Source: an uncultured Methanobrevibacter sp. (GTDB lineage Archaea > Methanobacteriota > Methanobacteria > Methanobacteriales > Methanobacteriaceae). From it: a stretch of 64,000 nucleotides of DNA. The notes under the pieces are model-generated. The model worked only from the letters and a program-made list of their open reading frames with translations, was not told where the DNA came from and made no database searches. Shown here in pieces: positions 52,902 to 61,343 of this stretch; position 1 is the first letter of the stretch; each line of letters opens with the position of its first letter. The translations under genes were made by a program, and so were the position numbers. The stretch spans positions 1 to 64,000 of the forward strand of contig NZ_CAMHFP010000005.1 in assembly GCF_946184425.1 (NCBI RefSeq). The letters are read 5' to 3'.

Positions 52902-53231
52902 ATGGAACGAGCAGTTTGGATTATTTTAAATAAAAACTTTTCAATTACAATGGACAGCGAAATAAAAAACGGCAAAATCACCGATAAAAAATTTTCTCCC
53001 GGAGAAGATATCTGGACAGATGAACTTCCAAGATTAGGTTTCAGCAGCGAAAATATTCAAAAAGATTATGATGAATTCATAATGGACATTATTTCCTTAT
53101 TTAGTGAAGTTGATGCCGATAAAGTATTCATTGATGCAAAACTTGGCGAAGAATCTGAATACGTAAATGCAAAAAGTCCATTATTAATAAGAAAAATAGA
53201 AGAATATAGCGTCGATGAAATTATAGAATAG
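52902..53231 (+). CDS. conserved hypothetical acidic protein
   Basis: The 109-residue soluble protein is acidic, with an amino-terminal beta segment (ERAVWIILNKNFSI), a loop FSPGEDIWTDELPRLGF and a helical carboxyl half. No motif is recognised. Its last eleven bases overlap the convergent gene at 53221. It has no clear ribosome binding site, and a TATA-like run lies upstream near 52868-52880. Confidence 0.6.
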   Translation: MERAVWIILNKNFSITMDSEIKNGKITDKKFSPGEDIWTDELPRLGFSSENIQKDYDEFIMDIISLFSEVDADKVFIDAKLGEESEYVNAKSPLLIRKIEEYSVDEIIE

Positions 53232-53559
53232 CATTTGCCTTATCTAATACCTCATCCATGCTATTAAATTCAAGTTTTTCACCATCTTCCCCTACTTTTT
53301 CTGTTGTAATCAGTACATGAGGGGATGCCCACAAATATGAATATGTGAAATAAATCAGATTAATGGCCAAAAATAATACTGATACGCTTAATGCCAATAA
53401 TAAACAAACAATCTGAATCAGTATATTTCCAAATCTTCTCTTTTTCATTAAGATAAATTTGTCACCATTTTCAACAGTTATAAATTTTTTTTCAGATAAT
53501 TCTTTAGAAATTTCATCCATTTCCTTAGAATTATCCGCACTAAGAATAAAAAGTTTCAT
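53221..53559 (-). CDS. hypothetical membrane protein
   Basis: The 112-residue protein has a soluble start (KLFILSADNSKEMDEISKEL), a basic stretch KKRRFG, then a long hydrophobic region (about 47-75, one or two helices), and an acidic carboxyl tail. I do not recognise a family. The start is one base after the stop of the nitroreductase gene, so it is the last member of the minus-strand cluster. Its end overlaps the convergent gene by eleven bases. Confidence 0.6.
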   Translation of the reverse strand: MKLFILSADNSKEMDEISKELSEKKFITVENGDKFILMKKRRFGNILIQIVCLLLALSVSVLFLAINLIYFTYSYLWASPHVLITTEKVGEDGEKLEFNSMDEVLDKANAIL

Positions 53560-53560
53560 T

Positions 53561-54070
53561 TTAATCTACATACACAACAAATTCATCTAACTCTTTTCTT
53601 GGAGTTTCTCTTGGTTCAGCATTTCCATAGCCTAATGGAGTAAATAATACTGCTTCCTCATTTTCTTCCAAGTTTAAAAATTTATGAGCTTTATTTTTCT
53701 TAAATGCACCAATATAACATGTACCTAATCCCACATCAGTAGCTGCAAGAATAATATGATCCATGACAATAGTTGCATCAATGTCAGCGATGTTTTTACT
53801 ATCCCATGGCCTGGTCCATGCTTTATCCCTTAAAGCGACAACACATAATACATAAGGAGCTTCAACAAACCATTTTGCACCATAAATTTCAGACAATTCC
53901 TGCTTATATTTTTTTGCATCTATTACAAATACCTTGAATGGCTGAGCATTGACCCCTGTTGGAGCTATTGTGGCTGCTTTTAAAACATATTCCAGTTTCT
54001 CTTTTTCAACTTCCTTATCCAAGTATCCTCTGACACTATATCTTTCATTTATTACATCAATAAATTCCAT
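53561..54070 (-). CDS. nitroreductase family protein
   Basis: This is an FMN-dependent nitroreductase-fold oxidoreductase of 169 residues. INERYSVRGYLDKEVEKEKL at the start is the classic FMN-binding block, followed by ATIAPTGVNAQPFKVFVI, DIDATIVMDHIILAATDVGLGTCYIGAF and TPLGYGNAEPRETPRKEL. The substrate is unknown. It starts five bases after the citryl-CoA-lyase-like gene, so it belongs to that transcription unit. Confidence 0.9.
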   Translation of the reverse strand: MEFIDVINERYSVRGYLDKEVEKEKLEYVLKAATIAPTGVNAQPFKVFVIDAKKYKQELSEIYGAKWFVEAPYVLCVVALRDKAWTRPWDSKNIADIDATIVMDHIILAATDVGLGTCYIGAFKKNKAHKFLNLEENEEAVLFTPLGYGNAEPRETPRKELDEFVVYVD

Positions 54071-54075
54071 CTAAA

Positions 54076-54873
54076 TCACCTTCCGTGATATTCAATATCA
54101 TCTAAATCACAAAATCGTCTAAATTCATCCTCTTCCATTCTTTCTTCATTAATATGGGCCACAATACCAGGAACCCTGCCTATGATAAATACTCCTAAGC
54201 CGGACTCGGGATCAAAACCCAAATCAGATAAGATAGCTGCATTTGCACCATCAACATTCAGCCGGATTCCTTTCTTTTGATATGCCAAATCTTCAACTGC
54301 CAGTGCAAGCTTAACATGAGGGCCAACAAAACCTTCCTTAATGACTATGTCCATAAGTTTATCAGCCCTTGGATCAACATCATGATACCTATGGCCAAAA
54401 CCAGGTATTTTTTTATCACCCAATATATACTCAGTGTAAATATCAATGGCAAGACTTGCAATTTGTTTATTGTCAAGATGTGAATCTTCAGTTAAATAAA
54501 GGGAATCAATTTTGGACTGATATAATTCCATAGCCTGTTGAATTGCACCTGCATGCTTATGCCCAAAGGACAATAAAGCACCTGCAACAGCGGCATTAAT
54601 TGGAGATCCTGAAGAAGCAATCAAACGAGCAGTCTGAGTGCTTGGCGGAGTAACACCATGATCACAAAAGGAAACCAATACATGATTAAAGATTTTTCCT
54701 TCTTTTATTGAGGGCAATCTTCCTTTTAAAAGCAGATAAACCATATCACTGTATCTTATTTTTTCTATCAAATCTCTCTGATTATATCCTCTAGTTATAA
54801 TCTTATCGGTTTCGACTTTAGAAATAGCAGTTTTCAATGAACGAGGATTGACCCTAAAATTATTTTCTCGCAT
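54076..54873 (-). CDS. citryl-CoA lyase/citrate synthase-fold protein
   Basis: This 265-residue protein is a short member of the citrate synthase superfamily, the size of citryl-CoA lyases rather than full citrate synthases (about 370-430). The catalytic residues are present: histidine in SFGHKHAGA, histidine in IPGFGHRYHDVDPRADKL and aspartate in LNVDGANAAILSDLG. It could cleave a citryl-CoA-like thioester, or condense an acyl-CoA with a 2-oxo acid. The association with PrpD-, fumarase- and permease-type genes upstream suggests a tricarboxylate pathway. No separate CoA ligase is in the window, which leaves the thioester step open. It is 56 bp from the fumarase-like gene and five from the nitroreductase. 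Confidence 0.82.
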   Translation of the reverse strand: MRENNFRVNPRSLKTAISKVETDKIITRGYNQRDLIEKIRYSDMVYLLLKGRLPSIKEGKIFNHVLVSFCDHGVTPPSTQTARLIASSGSPINAAVAGALLSFGHKHAGAIQQAMELYQSKIDSLYLTEDSHLDNKQIASLAIDIYTEYILGDKKIPGFGHRYHDVDPRADKLMDIVIKEGFVGPHVKLALAVEDLAYQKKGIRLNVDGANAAILSDLGFDPESGLGVFIIGRVPGIVAHINEERMEEDEFRRFCDLDDIEYHGR

Positions 54874-54929
54874 GATTTTCTTTTCCTTTTTTAATTAATT
54901 AAAAATAATATCGATAAAGTATATAAATT

Positions 54930-55802
54930 TTACAATTTTAAACAAGAAACCCTAGGTTCAACAAAACAAGACGGTCTAACGGAAACAATTCTAACACCAC
55001 TTGCCCTTTGATTTCCAATATTTACATATGAACCTAAAACCGTGGTTTTTCCCCCAAAACCTAACGGACCAATATTGCTTTCATTTAATTTTGTTGACAC
55101 ATATTTTTCAACATCACTCTGATTATCCAAATTTCCATATGCAATTGCTTTTAATAAAAGGGATGTTGCCTCGAAATGTGTTCTTCCAATGCCCACTGCA
55201 GGTATTGAAGGAGTACATCCCAACATTTTTAAAGAATCATTTAGCCAGCCAACTGCAGTGTCAATAACATTATAAAAAGAACGTTTATGATACACTCTGA
55301 ATGTTTTGGCCCTTATCTCAGGACCTCCCCCTTCAAGCAAAAAGTGAATATTTAAAGTATCAGGTGAAATATCTCTTTTATATGACGATTGATCACAATG
55401 AGAATCAATCAAAATTGGAGCGGGTTTAAGCATTCCAGGTTTTTCAAATAATCCTCTGCTTTGTTCAACTCTTTCAATTTCATTTCCCTTTACAGCCATA
55501 GGCCTTGCAGGAAGATTATTTAATCCCAATTCAATTCCTTCATAAATTTGGCCAATAAGCTGACCTGATATCTCCCTTTCCTTTCCAACTTCAATAATTA
55601 CATGAGCAATACCCGTATCATCACATAAAGGAAAATTGATACTTTGAGCAACATGATAGTTTTCTAAAATTTGAGATAAACACCAGGAAGCATTTTCATT
55701 AGTTTCTATCTCAATGGCTCTTTTTAATGCATCCAATTTATCATCAGTCAAATTTGTTGAAGCTTCAATAATGGAATTAGAAACAGAATCAATTATATCC
55801 AT
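54930..55802 (-). CDS. class I fumarase/tartrate dehydratase alpha-like protein
   Basis: The 290-residue protein is an alpha-subunit of class I, 4Fe-4S hydro-lyases (fumarate hydratase, tartrate dehydratase). Cluster cysteines are recognisable in PLCDDTGIAHV and LGCTPSIPAVGIG, and the last conserved block is IGPLGFGGKTTVLGSYVNIG. The ATG at 55802 is taken because GGAGTGAT lies just before it; a longer frame from 55874 would run through the upstream gene. No beta subunit is adjacent, although both are normally needed, so it either shares the cellular fumarase beta or acts differently. The linkage to MmgE/PrpD suggests hydration of an unsaturated tri- or dicarboxylate. Confidence 0.85.
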   Translation of the reverse strand: MDIIDSVSNSIIEASTNLTDDKLDALKRAIEIETNENASWCLSQILENYHVAQSINFPLCDDTGIAHVIIEVGKEREISGQLIGQIYEGIELGLNNLPARPMAVKGNEIERVEQSRGLFEKPGMLKPAPILIDSHCDQSSYKRDISPDTLNIHFLLEGGGPEIRAKTFRVYHKRSFYNVIDTAVGWLNDSLKMLGCTPSIPAVGIGRTHFEATSLLLKAIAYGNLDNQSDVEKYVSTKLNESNIGPLGFGGKTTVLGSYVNIGNQRASGVRIVSVRPSCFVEPRVSCLKL

Positions 55803-55806
55803 AAAA

Positions 55807-56709
55807 TCACTCCGGAATTGATAAATAACCGGAATCTTTTGGAGAAGGAACAGCGTCAGACAAATATTCATCAATTACTCTTTTGACTAATTTCACTTGT
55901 TTAATGCGAGCAATAGCTTCTTTTTCTGTTGTATCCCAATTATGATTGGCCGCAACAGATCCTCCAGTTTTTAAATATACCGGAGATGCAACTTTAATAA
56001 AATCAGGGACTTCATAATGTCTTATGAATCCGCCAGTAGATTTAGGATTTTCAGTGTGTAAATCAATAGGAATGTTAATAGCCCTGCGAATAGCTGCAAT
56101 CATAGGAATTTGTAAATCTCGAACAGGATTTAATGAATTAAGACCTATACTTTCAAGTAATTTTGCAGAAGCCGGATTAGAATGGCCTGCATGAGCTGAC
56201 AATTTAAAATGAACGTTTAATGGTATTTCACAGGATTTTCTCAATTTATTTAAAACCCAAAGCAAACCTTCATCATACAACAATATTCCCCTAACACCCA
56301 ATTTGCATGCTCTTTTAACATCTTCAATAGCATAGACAAGATTATCATAACCTCTCAACCTGTACCCTATTCGACTACCTTCTTTGGTATGAACTGTAGC
56401 TGAGGTATCATAAGTTGCTCTTGGACCTACAGATAAAAACAATTCACAACCATAATCCTTAGCCAGGTTAACCATTTCTGAAATCTCCTCATCAGTCAAC
56501 ATCATTATTCCTTTTGTTTGTGTAACCCTATGAATAAAAATGTCATTTTTAACTGATTCATTTAGAAGCGCATCCATAGTTTTTGGAGATTGAATTCCAG
56601 GAACTTCAAAACGATACTGGCCGCCATCCTTAAATCTTTTATCAGATAGAAAATCCCTGTCAGTTTCTTCAATTCCTATTTTTTTAAGAAAATCCTTTGT
56701 ATCATCCAT
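55807..56709 (-). CDS. U32-like TIM-barrel protein
   Basis: The 300-residue protein reads as a TIM barrel related to the U32 peptidase/hydroxylase group: FIHRVTQTKGIMMLTDEEI, GCELFLSVGPRATYDTSA, a middle strand with GVRGILLYDEGLLW, and IGLNSLNPVRDLQIPMIAAI. The hydroxylation or peptidase chemistry of U32 relatives depends on cysteines that are not evident here; histidines in VHFKLSAHAGHSNPAS and DLHTENP may form a site. Members of this subgroup have no role I know of. The gap to the PrpD-like gene is five bases, and its stop is four bases from the next start, so it is part of the operon. Confidence 0.6.
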   Translation of the reverse strand: MDDTKDFLKKIGIEETDRDFLSDKRFKDGGQYRFEVPGIQSPKTMDALLNESVKNDIFIHRVTQTKGIMMLTDEEISEMVNLAKDYGCELFLSVGPRATYDTSATVHTKEGSRIGYRLRGYDNLVYAIEDVKRACKLGVRGILLYDEGLLWVLNKLRKSCEIPLNVHFKLSAHAGHSNPASAKLLESIGLNSLNPVRDLQIPMIAAIRRAINIPIDLHTENPKSTGGFIRHYEVPDFIKVASPVYLKTGGSVAANHNWDTTEKEAIARIKQVKLVKRVIDEYLSDAVPSPKDSGYLSIPE

Positions 56710-56714
56710 ATTAT

Positions 56715-58124
56715 CTACCTATTCAATTTTTCAACAACATAATCCATAGAATAATCTTCCAAATTATCAATAACTGTTAAATTTTTCACATTATAATAAG
56801 GGTTTAATCCTTTGAATTTATCAATCAGTTCCCTTAACTGAAGAGGATTTTCAAAATCACCTTTAGGAATCAATGTTAAATTTTGGAACAGTCCATTTCT
56901 GAATTGTTTATCCAACTTAATAATTACATTTGAAGGCCTTTTATCAGGATACAATTTATTTAAATCATCATCTGAAATCAAAATCATCCTATTGGCAATA
57001 TTCTTAATGCTTTTTACAACATCTACACTAGAATAGTTATCCAAAAGACCATATTCCAGTAACTGGTTAATTCCATCTACACTTATCTCTCCAACCACCA
57101 GAGATATTGCAACAGCATAAGGTAAACTCTGTTTAAGTTCTTCCAAATTCTTTGGATTAAAATTATCATGTTCAGCGGCGATTTTATATGTTTTGACGGC
57201 AACATTCTCAATATGATCATATTCCTCCCCAATACTTGCCTTAAGTTTCAGTGCAGTGTCAATTGAGGAATGCAAATGCCTGCAAAAAGGATATTTTTTA
57301 AAGTAAATATCTCTTACTCTGACTTTGCCTACTTCCTTCAGGGCATTTTCAAAAGAAAAATCATCTACATCATAATCTGGATTATCCATAACCATTGTTT
57401 TTAAAAATCCTTCATCGCCTTCAAAAATTGTTTCACTACCAGTAAACCCATTTCTGGCCAATAATGCTGATAATAATCCATTATATGATGCTTTACCTGC
57501 ATGTAATGCTTTACCCATAGATCCACCATGGTCAGATTCTAAAAGACCTGCCGCCTGTGTTCCACATAAACCTAAAGCATTGGTAATCTGATTTTCATCA
57601 AGTTTCAATAATTTAGAAGCAACAGCCCCTGCAATAAAAGTGCCGATAGTTCCAGTAGTGTGAAAACCCTTATTCCTATGCTCAGGATTTACCAACTTTC
57701 CAAGCAAAATTCCTACCTCATATCCGACAATTACTCCTTCCAGAAATTCCCTGCCACTTAACTTGTGGCTCTCTGAAATTGCCAAAGCAGTTGGAAAGAT
57801 AACTGCACCCAAATGAACCTGAGCACCCCTATGACCATCATCCAATTCAAGCACATGAGCTGCAACACCGTTTATAAAAGCAACACTTAACATGTCAGTT
57901 TTTGTTTTTCTACCTAAAATAGACGCTTTTAAATTTAAATTTAAGTTTCCAGAAAATATTTCTTCAACTGTGTTGAAAGCTATATTTGAAGCATTCTCGG
58001 ATGCACCCCTATAAGTTACTCCGAAAAAGTCTAAAAAAGCGGCTTTAGCAGTAGTGATGGATTCTACAGTTGCTTGCTCATACCTATAGTTTGAAATAAA
58101 TTTAGAAATATTTTGTAAAAACAT
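56715..58124 (-). CDS. MmgE/PrpD family protein
   Basis: The 469-residue protein belongs to the MmgE/PrpD family, which includes 2-methylcitrate dehydratase, cis-aconitate decarboxylase and iminodisuccinate epimerase. Typical segments are AAFLDFFGVTYRGASENAS, AHVLELDDGHRGAQVHLG, the ALGLCGTQAAGLLESDHGGS helix and KKYPFCRHLHSSIDTALKL. The family name alone does not tell dehydratase from decarboxylase or epimerase. AAGGTGTTTT precedes the ATG. It is the first of the enzyme genes, 134 bp after the permease pair, and probably draws its substrate from them. Confidence 0.9.
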   Translation of the reverse strand: MFLQNISKFISNYRYEQATVESITTAKAAFLDFFGVTYRGASENASNIAFNTVEEIFSGNLNLNLKASILGRKTKTDMLSVAFINGVAAHVLELDDGHRGAQVHLGAVIFPTALAISESHKLSGREFLEGVIVGYEVGILLGKLVNPEHRNKGFHTTGTIGTFIAGAVASKLLKLDENQITNALGLCGTQAAGLLESDHGGSMGKALHAGKASYNGLLSALLARNGFTGSETIFEGDEGFLKTMVMDNPDYDVDDFSFENALKEVGKVRVRDIYFKKYPFCRHLHSSIDTALKLKASIGEEYDHIENVAVKTYKIAAEHDNFNPKNLEELKQSLPYAVAISLVVGEISVDGINQLLEYGLLDNYSSVDVVKSIKNIANRMILISDDDLNKLYPDKRPSNVIIKLDKQFRNGLFQNLTLIPKGDFENPLQLRELIDKFKGLNPYYNVKNLTVIDNLEDYSMDYVVEKLNR

Positions 58125-58258
58125 AAAACACCTTAATTAATATATGTAAAAAGTAGTATTAAATAGTTAACTTACACTGTAAAACAATTTTTCAAAATGA
58201 ACTACCACAACTTATAGAAATAGAGTATTCCTGCACAAATTAGATAAAATAAAAAAAG

Positions 58259-58753
58259 CTAAACTGCTGGAACTCCAGTGGCAACCAATACAATATGAGC
58301 CACAATAGCAGCACCATAATAAGTAGCGGCAATTACTAAAACTGTTACAACAATAGCTCTCCATCCTAAAGCTTTGAATTCATCCCAGCTTTTACCCATA
58401 CCTATACCAACATAAGCTAAAAATACTGTAACAATAGATAAAAGTTCCACATGGGAAACATAATACAGCACAGTTGATGAGGTAGGCATTCCAGGAAATG
58501 CCAAAACAATACCAAATACACTGATATATAAAATTGAAGAAATATTAAACGGCAAATATCTTTCCATCCAAACTCCGGCAAGAGTAATAAGAGATAAAAT
58601 TCCCATACCCACAAAGGAATCATATAATGGATGCTTATATCCTAAGTAGTTACCTATAACAGTAATTATGGAAAATATTGTCAACAATAAAATCCAATTG
58701 AAAATTCCATGAACGGAAACATTTTCAGATCCATCTATTAAGTCCGGCATCAT
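58259..58753 (-). CDS. small permease subunit partnering DUF3100 (copy 1)
   Basis: The 164-residue protein has five hydrophobic helices. It is about three-quarters identical to the gene at 59809: both share VHGxFNWILLLxIFSIITV near the start and KSWDEFKALGW before the last helix. It overlaps the DUF3100 gene stop by four bases (ATGA), so the two are made together, as for a two-subunit carrier. The substrate is unknown; the linked enzymes suggest an organic acid. Confidence 0.75.
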   Translation of the reverse strand: MMPDLIDGSENVSVHGIFNWILLLTIFSIITVIGNYLGYKHPLYDSFVGMGILSLITLAGVWMERYLPFNISSILYISVFGIVLAFPGMPTSSTVLYYVSHVELLSIVTVFLAYVGIGMGKSWDEFKALGWRAIVVTVLVIAATYYGAAIVAHIVLVATGVPAV

Positions 58754-59640
58754 TCATCACCCTTTTTAGCAATGGAGTCTTTACCTATTTTAGGCTCCAA
58801 CCAATTATACATCTTTTCAGTCAGTGGAATTGCAACAAATATTACAATATAAATTCCCACACAGAAGGACAGCAGATTACTAAATCCTGCAAATGCTTCA
58901 ATTTGAGACTCCAAACCTGGAAATGCCGCAAGAGTAGGACCAATAGCCGCAGCATTCATACTCGCACTACCCACACCACTTGCCATAGCAAAAGCATAAG
59001 GATGCAAAGGTAAAAATGATAATGACATTGTCACAAGAAAACTGATGAAAATAGTACCTATAACAGTACCAATAATAAATATTGCAAAAACACCTCTGGA
59101 TTCCGGAGAGTTAAATCCATACTTATCAACAACAACAGCAACATTCGGTTCACGACCAATGGAATTAGTCATACCAATAGCTTCTTCTTTAAATCCTAAA
59201 AGCAAAGCAATAGGAAGAACTAAAATAGTTGCCAAGTGCCCTAATTCCTGTAATATTAAAGCAGGACCCATTTCAAAAATCAAATGAATTGATTGACCAC
59301 TAGAAACAGCCAATTTAGCAATCAAAACACCAATAAAAAGCATCATGGCCCCTTCAGCAATACGTGCTTGTTTTCTTTGAATCCAAGTTATAGGCTTAGC
59401 CAAATAAAATACCAAACCAAGAACAATCGTATAAATTAAAGGCATTATAGTGATTGCAACATCCCCAGTTATAGGAATTTTTTGAGTACCAATCAGTTCA
59501 GCAATAACTACCAAAATCAGTACAGTTACATGTAATCTATAATCTCGCCACGGATTTTTCTTTAAAATCCTTTTATCAGTTTTTTCACGATAAATATGCT
59601 CAACTTGTCCATCATCATCTTTCAATGGAATAATCGCCAT
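58750..59640 (-). CDS. DUF3100 membrane protein (copy 1)
   Basis: The 296-residue protein has a charged start, then about eight helices, and matches DUF3100, a family of probable carriers. The conserved FAMASGVGSASMNAAAIGPT near 225 looks like a substrate-binding broken helix. The Gly/Ser-rich composition and AKLAVSSGQSIHLIFEMGPA also suit a secondary transporter. The ATG at 59640 directly abuts GGGGAG, leaving no spacing; an in-frame ATT at 59634, six bases on, lines up with the second copy and may be the real start. The cluster carries two such pairs in tandem. Confidence 0.8.
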   Translation of the reverse strand: MAIIPLKDDDGQVEHIYREKTDKRILKKNPWRDYRLHVTVLILVVIAELIGTQKIPITGDVAITIMPLIYTIVLGLVFYLAKPITWIQRKQARIAEGAMMLFIGVLIAKLAVSSGQSIHLIFEMGPALILQELGHLATILVLPIALLLGFKEEAIGMTNSIGREPNVAVVVDKYGFNSPESRGVFAIFIIGTVIGTIFISFLVTMSLSFLPLHPYAFAMASGVGSASMNAAAIGPTLAAFPGLESQIEAFAGFSNLLSFCVGIYIVIFVAIPLTEKMYNWLEPKIGKDSIAKKGDE

Positions 59641-59739
59641 CTCCCCAATAAAAATAAAAACATGAATATATATGCTTAATTAATAATACATTTCTTAAAA
59701 CATATTATATAAATTATTAAGATTAAATTTTTAAAAATT

Positions 59740-59807
59740 CACAAAAAGAGAATAAAAAATTAATGGCTTAAAAAAAATAACACAAAAAGAGAATAAAAAA
59801 TTAATGG
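59740..59807. repeat. 27-bp direct repeat behind permease copy 2
   Basis: An identical 27-base segment occurs at 59740-59766 and again at 59781-59807, 14 bases apart; the second copy ends one base before the stop of the permease gene at 59809. It contains a CACAAAAAGAGAATAAAAAA core, similar to the tiaS terminator at 61344-61370. It looks like a duplicated terminator region. Confidence 0.7.
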
Positions 59808-59808
59808 T

Positions 59809-60297
59809 TTAAACTGGAACACCAGTCATGACCAAAACAATATGAGCCACAATAGCAGATCCAAGATATGTAGAAGCAATAACTAATACTGTAACGATTA
59901 TTGCTTTCCATCCAAGCGCTTTGAATTCATCCCAACTCTTACCAATACCAATTCCCACATAAGCTAAAAATACTGTAACAATTGATAAAAGCTCTATCTT
60001 TGAGACATAATACAGCACAGTTTCAGATGTTGGAACTCCAGGGAAGGCTAAAAAAATCCCAATCAGACTTATATAAATAATTGAAGAAATATTTAATGGA
60101 AGTCTACGTTCCAACCAAACTCCAATTAAAGTAATTCCAGATAAAATAGCCATACCAATTAAAGAATCATAAATTGGATGCCTATAACCCATATAGTTAC
60201 CGACAACTGTAATTATGGAAAAAATTGACAACAACAATATCCAATTAAAAACACCGTGGACTGAAACATCAACTGGTTCATCAATTAGTTCAGGCAT
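59809..60297 (-). CDS. small permease subunit partnering DUF3100 (copy 2)
   Basis: The 162-residue paralogue of the gene at 58259 has five hydrophobic helices and the same KSWDEFKALGW loop. It begins directly after the stop of the larger partner. Divergence from copy 1 is mostly conservative (Ile/Val/Leu exchanges), which indicates maintained function in both copies and perhaps different substrate preferences. Confidence 0.75.
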   Translation of the reverse strand: MPELIDEPVDVSVHGVFNWILLLSIFSIITVVGNYMGYRHPIYDSLIGMAILSGITLIGVWLERRLPLNISSIIYISLIGIFLAFPGVPTSETVLYYVSKIELLSIVTVFLAYVGIGIGKSWDEFKALGWKAIIVTVLVIASTYLGSAIVAHIVLVMTGVPV

Positions 60298-61230
60298 TTA
60301 TTTACCTCCTGCAGTATTTTCATCAATCTGAGAGTCGTCATCATCGGAAGATCTTCCTATTTTCGGTTCCAAAATGTAATATAACTTTTCAGTTAAAGGA
60401 AGAGCAATAAATATCACAATATAAATTCCTATGGAGAATGAAAGTAAATTACTGAATCCCGCAAATGCTTCAATACTTGTTTCCAATGCAGGGAATGCTG
60501 CAAGAGTAGGACCTAATGCGGCTGCATTCATACTCGCACTACCCACACCACTTGCCATAGCAAAAGCATAAGGGTGTAATGGTAGCAATGAAGTACTTAA
60601 ACTTGCTAAAAAACTTATAAACACAGTACCAATCATAGTACCAATGATAAATAATGCAAATATTCCCCTTGATTCGGGAGAATTAAAACCATACTTATCA
60701 ACAACAACAGCAACTTCAGGTTCACGACCAATAGAGTTAGTCATTCCAATAGCTTCTCGTTTAAATCCTAAAAGTATAGCAACAGGAAGAGCAATGAGCA
60801 ATGTTGCCAAATGCCCTAATTCTTGTAATAATAATGCAGGACCCATTTCAAAAATCAAATGAATTGATTGACCACTAGAAACAGCCAATTTAGCAATCAA
60901 AACACCAATAAATAACATCATAGCCCCTTCAGCAACACGAGCCTGTTTTCTTTGAATCCATGATATCGGTTTTGCCAAATAAAATATCAAACCCAAAACC
61001 ATCGAATATAACAGAGGCATTATGGAAACTTCTATACTTTCTGACAATGGAATTTTTATTGGACCAATAAGCTCAGCAATGATTACTAAAAACAACACTG
61101 TGATATGTAACCTATAATCCTTCCAAGGATTTTTCTTTAAAATTCGTTTATCCGTTTTTTCACGATAAATATGATTAATCTGATTGAAATCTTTATCATT
61201 ATCTGAAATAATACCAACTCTCCCCCACAT
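60298..61230 (-). CDS. DUF3100 membrane protein (copy 2)
   Basis: The 310-residue paralogue of the gene at 58750 has the same helices and FAMASGVGSASMNAAALGPT motif. The two differ mainly at both ends; copy 2 has an acidic carboxyl tail (SSDDDDSQIDENTAGG). An ATG at 61230 gives MWGRVGIISDNDKD, but the GGGGGAG lies after it, so an in-frame ATT at 61212 is a better-placed start and would make the start match copy 1. It is the first gene of the minus-strand cluster. Its promoter should be in the 190 bp before tiaS ends. Confidence 0.8.
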   Translation of the reverse strand: MWGRVGIISDNDKDFNQINHIYREKTDKRILKKNPWKDYRLHITVLFLVIIAELIGPIKIPLSESIEVSIMPLLYSMVLGLIFYLAKPISWIQRKQARVAEGAMMLFIGVLIAKLAVSSGQSIHLIFEMGPALLLQELGHLATLLIALPVAILLGFKREAIGMTNSIGREPEVAVVVDKYGFNSPESRGIFALFIIGTMIGTVFISFLASLSTSLLPLHPYAFAMASGVGSASMNAAALGPTLAAFPALETSIEAFAGFSNLLSFSIGIYIVIFIALPLTEKLYYILEPKIGRSSDDDDSQIDENTAGGK

Positions 61231-61343
61231 GAATAAATGGACAATATAATTTTTAGTTATTTAAAACTAGTATATAAATTAATATGCCTTAGTTCTCAAA
61301 AGTTCTAAAAATATGAATAAAAATAAGTAAAAATTATCTAAAA

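Follow-up and report, generated by a model that had tools for sequence, protein, structure and literature searches.

A 64,000-nt window of contig NZ_CAMHFP010000005.1 from an uncultured Methanobrevibacter sp. contains a minus-strand gene cluster (positions 53561-61230) that encodes an MmgE/PrpD-family protein (PrpD), a U32-like TIM barrel, a class I fumarase-type alpha subunit of divergent sequence (FumA') and a short citrate-synthase-fold protein resembling citryl-coenzyme A (CoA) lyase (Ccl). Together with a divergent fumarase-type beta subunit (FumB') encoded elsewhere in the genome, these proteins appear to form a five-gene module that would handle citrate-type acids. Its likeliest purpose in Methanobacteriales is synthesis of the 1,3,4,6-hexanetetracarboxylate (HTCA) tail of methanofuran, a reading to which we assign a probability of roughly 0.4. 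The citrate-type logic of the module is probably correct; HTCA as its product is a more tentative assignment. An initial annotation of the window had described the whole cluster, including two pairs of DUF3100 genes and a nitroreductase-family (NR) gene, as one module. Pfam and NCBIfam assignments bear out most of its gene content, all on the minus strand, and the proposed module holds for PrpD, U32-like, FumA' and Ccl, with DUF3100 and NR as optional neighbors.

Conservation covers a smaller unit than the cluster first described, namely PrpD, U32-like, FumA' and Ccl, located between tiaS and ahaH. A search of 150 genomes of the order found the U32-like protein in 127 genomes covering 18 of 19 genera. 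Twenty of the 23 negative genomes fall in one genus, which we take to be Methanosphaera, and the remaining 3 are at most 72% complete. PrpD, Ccl and FumB' were checked in 36 chosen genomes (27 non-Methanosphaera and 9 Methanosphaera). PrpD is present in 27/27 and Ccl in 26/27 of the non-Methanosphaera genomes; both are absent from all 9 Methanosphaera genomes, as is the second, divergent fumarase alpha. Synteny was read from 20 genomes in stretches of up to 19 kb each, and every complete stretch has the order tiaS-[DUF3100]-PrpD-U32-FumA'-Ccl-[NR]-ahaH-ahaI, where square brackets mark optional genes. The four-gene order is more than chance, as almost all loci that were read have it, Methanothermus and Methanobrevibacter included; the genomes presumably include M. 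smithii (G008) and M. ruminantium (G025). In G150, which we take to be Methanothermus fervidus, the core unit is present and its genes touch or overlap. The empty site is visible in four Methanosphaera genomes, where tiaS directly adjoins the ATP synthase genes. None of PrpD, U32-like, FumA', FumB' or Ccl was found in a complete chromosome (G020) that is presumably M. stadtmanae, which keeps DUF3100, a nitroreductase and canonical fumarase despite missing the core unit. Lack of conserved linkage, which the initial annotation held would speak against a module, was not found for the core unit, nor was anything else it had named to that effect.

FumA' had been described as an alpha subunit without a beta partner, which does not hold for the genome as a whole. 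The window genome carries two fumarase alpha and two beta genes, providing both subunits that a class I fumarase requires, and FumB' is encoded on another contig (G000:C12:15172-15660). FumB' occurs in 27/27 genomes with the unit and in 0/9 Methanosphaera, which keep the canonical beta only; the remote fumB' gene was thus lost along with the cluster. In Clostridia the FumB' and FumA' genes are adjacent. This co-occurrence, co-loss and clostridial adjacency make it very likely that FumA' and FumB' are subunits of one enzyme. The pair shares the alpha and beta folds of the two-subunit class I fumarases and L-tartrate dehydratases, and FumA' retains the three cysteines of the canonical alpha and scores just under the NCBIfam ttdA/fumA subfamily cut-off. 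It differs from these enzymes in the pocket residues of both subunits. Fumarase-specific alpha pocket residues are not kept in FumA' (Q65 to D61, N148 to I163, M154 to R169 and H255 to R266), arginine or histidine was gained relative to the canonical alpha at R164, R169, H172, R207, R266, R271 and R276, and the GPTTSxRM motif of the canonical beta is altered in FumB'. Judged by sequence, these changes would fit a larger, more acidic substrate. A further difference is that canonical fumarase coexists with the divergent enzyme in 26/27 genomes. In genome G072 (91% complete), FumA' is present and a canonical fumarase alpha was not found.

Ccl passes the curated citryl-CoA lyase subfamily NF004866 with 415 bits (cut-off 245) and matches the solved citryl-CoA lyase 6hxp with E = 3e-52. 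It shares the length, fold and conserved GHRYH-DPR and NVDGA motifs of that enzyme; unlike it, Ccl has no adjoining ATP:citrate/citryl-CoA synthetase partner, and citryl-CoA cleavage by Ccl is only predicted. Methanothermobacter-type genomes encode a second Ccl paralogue close to the canonical fumarase alpha gene and to pst-like genes (L201 12866-13804, L202 4515-5432), and the paralogue also occurs in Methanobacterium-type genomes. The window PrpD scores below the NCBIfam prpD equivalog cut-offs (33-45 bits versus 458-950). Its nearest solved structures, Bacillus subtilis IRG1-like 7bra and IDS-epimerase 2hp3, are about equally close (E about 3e-33), and PrpD is proposed to be a dehydratase of a citrate-type acid.

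The U32-like label stands as a weak profile and fold match that falls below the Pfam threshold. The window protein scores 17.4 bits against PF01136 (Peptidase_U32; gathering cut-off 22.4), and 20/20 relatives also match weakly. A structure model (pLDDT 86.6) best matches the U32 protein MK0906 (5d88), followed by class II aldolases and 2-methylisocitrate lyase, with TM-scores of about 0.5 that make only the barrel class secure. PrpB, of the isocitrate lyase/phosphoenolpyruvate (PEP) mutase family, is a generic lower-ranked match, and the nearest fold is U32. The likeness to peptidase family U32, UbiU-UbiV and MK0906 therefore consists of these weak profile matches and the 5d88 fold, over which identity is about 16%. 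Cysteine ligands for an iron-sulfur (Fe-S) cluster of the UbiU/UbiV or TrhP type were looked for in two U32-like family alignments and no invariant cysteine was found; Lys169 and several arginines are invariant across the family. A true U32 peptidase was rejected on the profile score below the cut-off and the lack of conserved cysteines. The barrel model leads us to propose that U32-like is an aldol lyase or synthase acting on a 2-oxoacid and a carboxylate.

Relatives of the module occur outside the archaea. A scan of 84,980 species gave 377 places related to U32-like, and the best 80 of these 377 belong to Methanobacteriales and gut Clostridia; archaea with weaker relatives may exist beyond the best 80. 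The clostridial proteins are 64-67% identical, which rules out a methanogen-only pathway. The archaeal and clostridial U32-like proteins form two separate groups in the tree (support 92/94 and 99/97), which rules out recent interspecies transfer into the window genome. Because 11/391 genomes of class Clostridia carry U32-like, it is an accessory trait there. Its clostridial neighbors are PrpD, FumB', FumA' and a carbon-carbon lyase of a different kind from Ccl, either a PF15617 barrel in polysaccharide clusters or the citrate lyase CitD/CitE/CitF. The citrate lyase sets come with GlcD/Etf genes, and CitD and CitF score above curated cut-offs. In L168 (6536-11690) and L169 (6524-16565), CitD/CitE/CitF lie beside U32-like, FumB', FumA' and GlcD/Etf genes, with PrpD and an Fe-ADH-like gene additionally in L169; a reverse glyoxylate- or methylcitrate-type fermentation is possible for these sets.

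The clostridial polysaccharide clusters with the U32-like set carry genes for ATP-grasp and DegT proteins and for sugar transferases. In L135, L141, L142 and L164, phosphonopyruvate decarboxylase and an aldo-keto reductase are encoded beside the U32-like module, and the decarboxylase, tested in L135, is above its curated cut-off. A phosphonate route was rejected: no PEP mutase family was found among the clostridial cluster genes examined, and phosphonopyruvate decarboxylase is missing in other variants from Clostridia as well as in the methanogen cluster. In a more distant group (L170, L171 and L172), true fumarase, malic enzyme, PrpD, organic-acid transporters and U32-like are encoded together in an uncharacterised catabolic cluster, and L173 (7973-9846) has a distant U32-like protein (36%) next to PanB-like and folate one-carbon genes. 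Genes for 2-oxo- and 2-hydroxy-acids recur in the clostridial sets, namely Ldh_2, D-2-hydroxyacid dehydrogenases, phosphonopyruvate decarboxylase with aldo-keto reductase, GlcD and a BhcA-like aminotransferase.

The best reason to believe in the lyase step is that Ccl is swapped for other citrate-type lyases in Clostridia. Since the clostridial sets pair U32-like, PrpD and FumA'B' with these other carbon-carbon lyases, the predicted roles correspond to a module of the methylcitrate or glyoxylate type with substituted enzymes. Ccl would join an acyl-CoA to a 2-oxoacid at its carbonyl carbon, or split the two apart. Removal and re-addition of water, in place of aconitase, would fall to PrpD and the Fe-S hydratase FumA'B'. 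U32-like would form or cleave the aldol bond that links a 2-oxoacid to a carboxylate at its alpha-carbon, replacing 2-methylisocitrate lyase or isocitrate lyase. Like the methylcitrate cycle (PrpC, PrpD, AcnB/PrpF-AcnD and PrpB), the cluster combines a citrate-synthase-fold enzyme, a PrpD-family dehydratase, an Fe-S hydratase and a TIM barrel. It differs in having Ccl for full PrpC, a class I fumarase-type heterodimer for aconitase and U32-like for PrpB; protein classes with chemistry matching all four predicted roles are present, from different families. The carboxylic-acid module of the initial annotation, in which PrpD and the fumarase-like protein stand in for aconitase beside a citrate-type lyase, thus gains support from the order-wide linkage and the clostridial sets. 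That annotation gave U32-like no function and left the neighborhoods with methanofuran and 2-oxoglutarate synthase genes unmentioned.

HTCA is, to our knowledge, the only special polycarboxylate of Methanobacteriales, and we know of no genes for the HTCA tail. Searches of the accessible literature returned no paper naming genes for the tetracarboxylic tail of Methanobacteriales methanofuran, none on DUF3100, on HTCA with methanofuran or on MTH96x locus names, and nothing relevant on citryl-CoA lyase with Methanobrevibacter. The link to methanofuran comes from the location of fumB', which follows mfnA in 10 loci of 8 genera. The identity of mfnA as the tyrosine decarboxylase of methanofuran biosynthesis is given by TIGR03812 (about 550 bits, cut-off 299). 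The two genes are separated by 5 bases (L204) or 18 bases (L206) or overlap by 4 bases (L205) in three thermophile-type genomes, and are paired with larger gaps in L207, L208, L209, L303, L304, L061 and L062. In the genus of the window and its closest relatives, fumB' and the korDABC-sucC operon (2-oxoglutarate synthase) are divergently oriented. M. stadtmanae keeps ppsA-mfnA and mfnB and lacks fumB', which speaks for the HTCA reading. Because FumB' adjoins mfnA or the kor operon, a role in methanofuran or 2-oxoglutarate metabolism is suggested. A 2011 inventory listed MfnA as the sole named methanofuran protein, with about seven others unidentified (PMC3087415), and by 2024 the methanofuran core had been solved via MfnA-F and five side-chain types were described (PMC11365854). 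The formyl-methanofuran dehydrogenase structure of Methanothermobacter wolfeii contains 4,5,7-tricarboxyheptanoyl methanofuran (PMC13397495). The module resembles methanofuran biosynthesis by MfnA-F in that most of the genera examined have fumB' immediately after mfnA, and differs in that the known Mfn genes yield only the APMF-Glu core.

HTCA would be built from 2-oxoglutarate-derived C5 units in Methanobacteriales. One route, quite improbable in its specifics, would begin with condensation of 2-oxoglutarate and acetyl-CoA to homocitrate by Ccl, followed by conversion to homoisocitrate by PrpD and FumA'B' and cleavage to glutarate and glyoxylate by U32-like. Glutarate and 2-oxoglutarate would then be joined by U32-like or Ccl to hydroxy-HTCA, which would be dehydrated and reduced by a further enzyme. 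That the set is the HTCA-tail pathway, that U32-like founds a new carboxylate aldolase family and that this chemistry serves the clostridial sets in decorating sugars or in catabolism of organic acids is, taken together, a bolder proposition that we consider possible.

Several points weigh against a role in making the HTCA tail. Co-loss with the whole methanofuran pathway was not seen: MfnB is present in 9/9 Methanosphaera and MfnA in M. stadtmanae. The retained MfnA and MfnB rule out loss of the whole pathway and leave a tail-specific loss as the possible one, and Methanosphaera with both proteins must make an HTCA-free methanofuran or obtain HTCA in another way. The loss in Methanosphaera is also a single evolutionary event. 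The ppsA gene adjoins the mfnA/fumB' locus as well, and the locus could serve carbon metabolism in general. Neither an alkene reductase nor an HTCA ligase was found linked to the module. The homologous sets of Clostridia, which do not produce methanofuran, show that the chemistry is not methanofuran-specific. The origin of HTCA from C5 units is a proposal drawn from chemical reasoning and from White's reported work, and the substrates of the module, like its reactions, their direction and the HTCA product, are predicted.

The best-surviving alternative, which we consider unlikely, is a central-carbon module in which a glyoxylate/citrate-type shuttle unrelated to methanofuran feeds anabolism, interconverting acetyl-CoA and oxaloacetate with glyoxylate and succinate or running a propionyl/pyruvate version of this reaction. 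Such a shuttle agrees with the closeness of Ccl to true citryl-CoA lyase, with the location of FumB' beside kor-sucC or ppsA, with the clostridial loci in which full citrate lyase and glycolate-oxidase-like and Etf genes lie beside U32/FumA'B'/PrpD, and with a glyoxylate-type aminotransferase in L172. It would leave the mfnA adjacency unexplained, and both the presence of canonical fumarase alongside the divergent enzyme and the altered FumA'B' substrate pocket argue against it. We also know of no need for glyoxylate or citrate in hydrogenotrophic Methanobacteriales. Less likely again is a different special polycarboxylate as the product, such as a decoration of the cell envelope. The clostridial copies in polysaccharide clusters with ATP-grasp ligases, DegT, sugar-nucleotide and sugar transferase genes point in this direction, whereas ligase and sugar genes are missing from the methanogen cluster and fumB' adjoins mfnA or kor instead. 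Import or export of a citrate-type acid by the DUF3100 pairs for processing by the enzymes, as the initial annotation had it, is highly improbable. The pairs do adjoin the unit in the window and in several loci of the Methanobrevibacter type, but most of the 20 loci have no DUF3100 next to the unit, unit-less M. stadtmanae retains DUF3100, and both pairs have separate TATA-like boxes; the transporter part is already largely refuted.

The same observations, synteny and M. stadtmanae homologues without the unit, rule out DUF3100 and NR as core genes; they occur beside the unit in part of the family only, and the DUF3100 part has no conserved linkage across Methanobacteriales. Relatives in related genera carry DUF3100 as one fused open reading frame of 421-472 amino acids, and by this comparison each pair in the window represents the split form of a single protein. 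Between the two copies, identity is 79% in both halves. Features of the cluster are listed in the table. The gaps are 5 bases between PrpD and U32, 4 between U32 and FumA' (which likely starts at the ATG at 55802), 56 between FumA' and Ccl, 5 between Ccl and NR, and 1 between NR and the next gene. The cluster stretch probably comprises several transcription units, because TTTATATA boxes sit in the FumA'-Ccl gap and upstream of both DUF3100 pairs (59706-59713 and 61271-61278). This archaeal TATA-like motif is enriched in the whole window (28 observed versus 12.7 expected).

Table. Features of the minus-strand cluster and its neighbors in the 64,000-nt window.
Feature	Position	Strand	Remarks
DUF3100 N-terminal half, copy 1	60298-61230	-	Pfam DUF3100 (E 2e-85 and 4e-84 for copies 1 and 2); outside module
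DUF3100 C-terminal half, copy 1	59809-60297	-	Weak Lys_export similarity
DUF3100 N-terminal half, copy 2	58750-59640	-	79% identity with copy 1
DUF3100 C-terminal half, copy 2	58259-58753	-	Small partner of copy 2
MmgE/PrpD-family protein, 469 amino acids, core	56715-58124	-	Pfam MmgE_PrpD_N 9e-68, MmgE_PrpD_C 3e-23
U32-like TIM barrel, 300 amino acids, core	55807-56709	-	Fold match U32; Pfam U32 below cut-off
FumA', divergent class I fumarase-type alpha, 290 amino acids, core	54930-55802	-	Pfam Fumerase 3.6e-48
TTTATATA box before ccl	54920-54927	-	Possible separate promoter for ccl-NR; consensus match only
Ccl, short citrate-synthase-fold, citryl-CoA-lyase-like, 265 amino acids, core	54076-54873	-	NCBIfam NF004866
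Nitroreductase-family protein (NR), optional neighbor, not core	53561-54070	-	Pfam Nitroreductase 6e-26
Small membrane protein, optional neighbor	53221-53559	-	Gene next after NR; no family assigned

In methanogenesis from CO2, methanofuran acts as the first carrier of carbon, and the five-gene candidate set makes the biosynthesis of its tail testable. A role in HTCA synthesis, if true, would account for the second, divergent fumarase in these methanogens and would predict a difference in the methanofuran tail of Methanosphaera. U32-like proteins, annotated as peptidases, would gain a metabolic role that is common to gut Clostridia.

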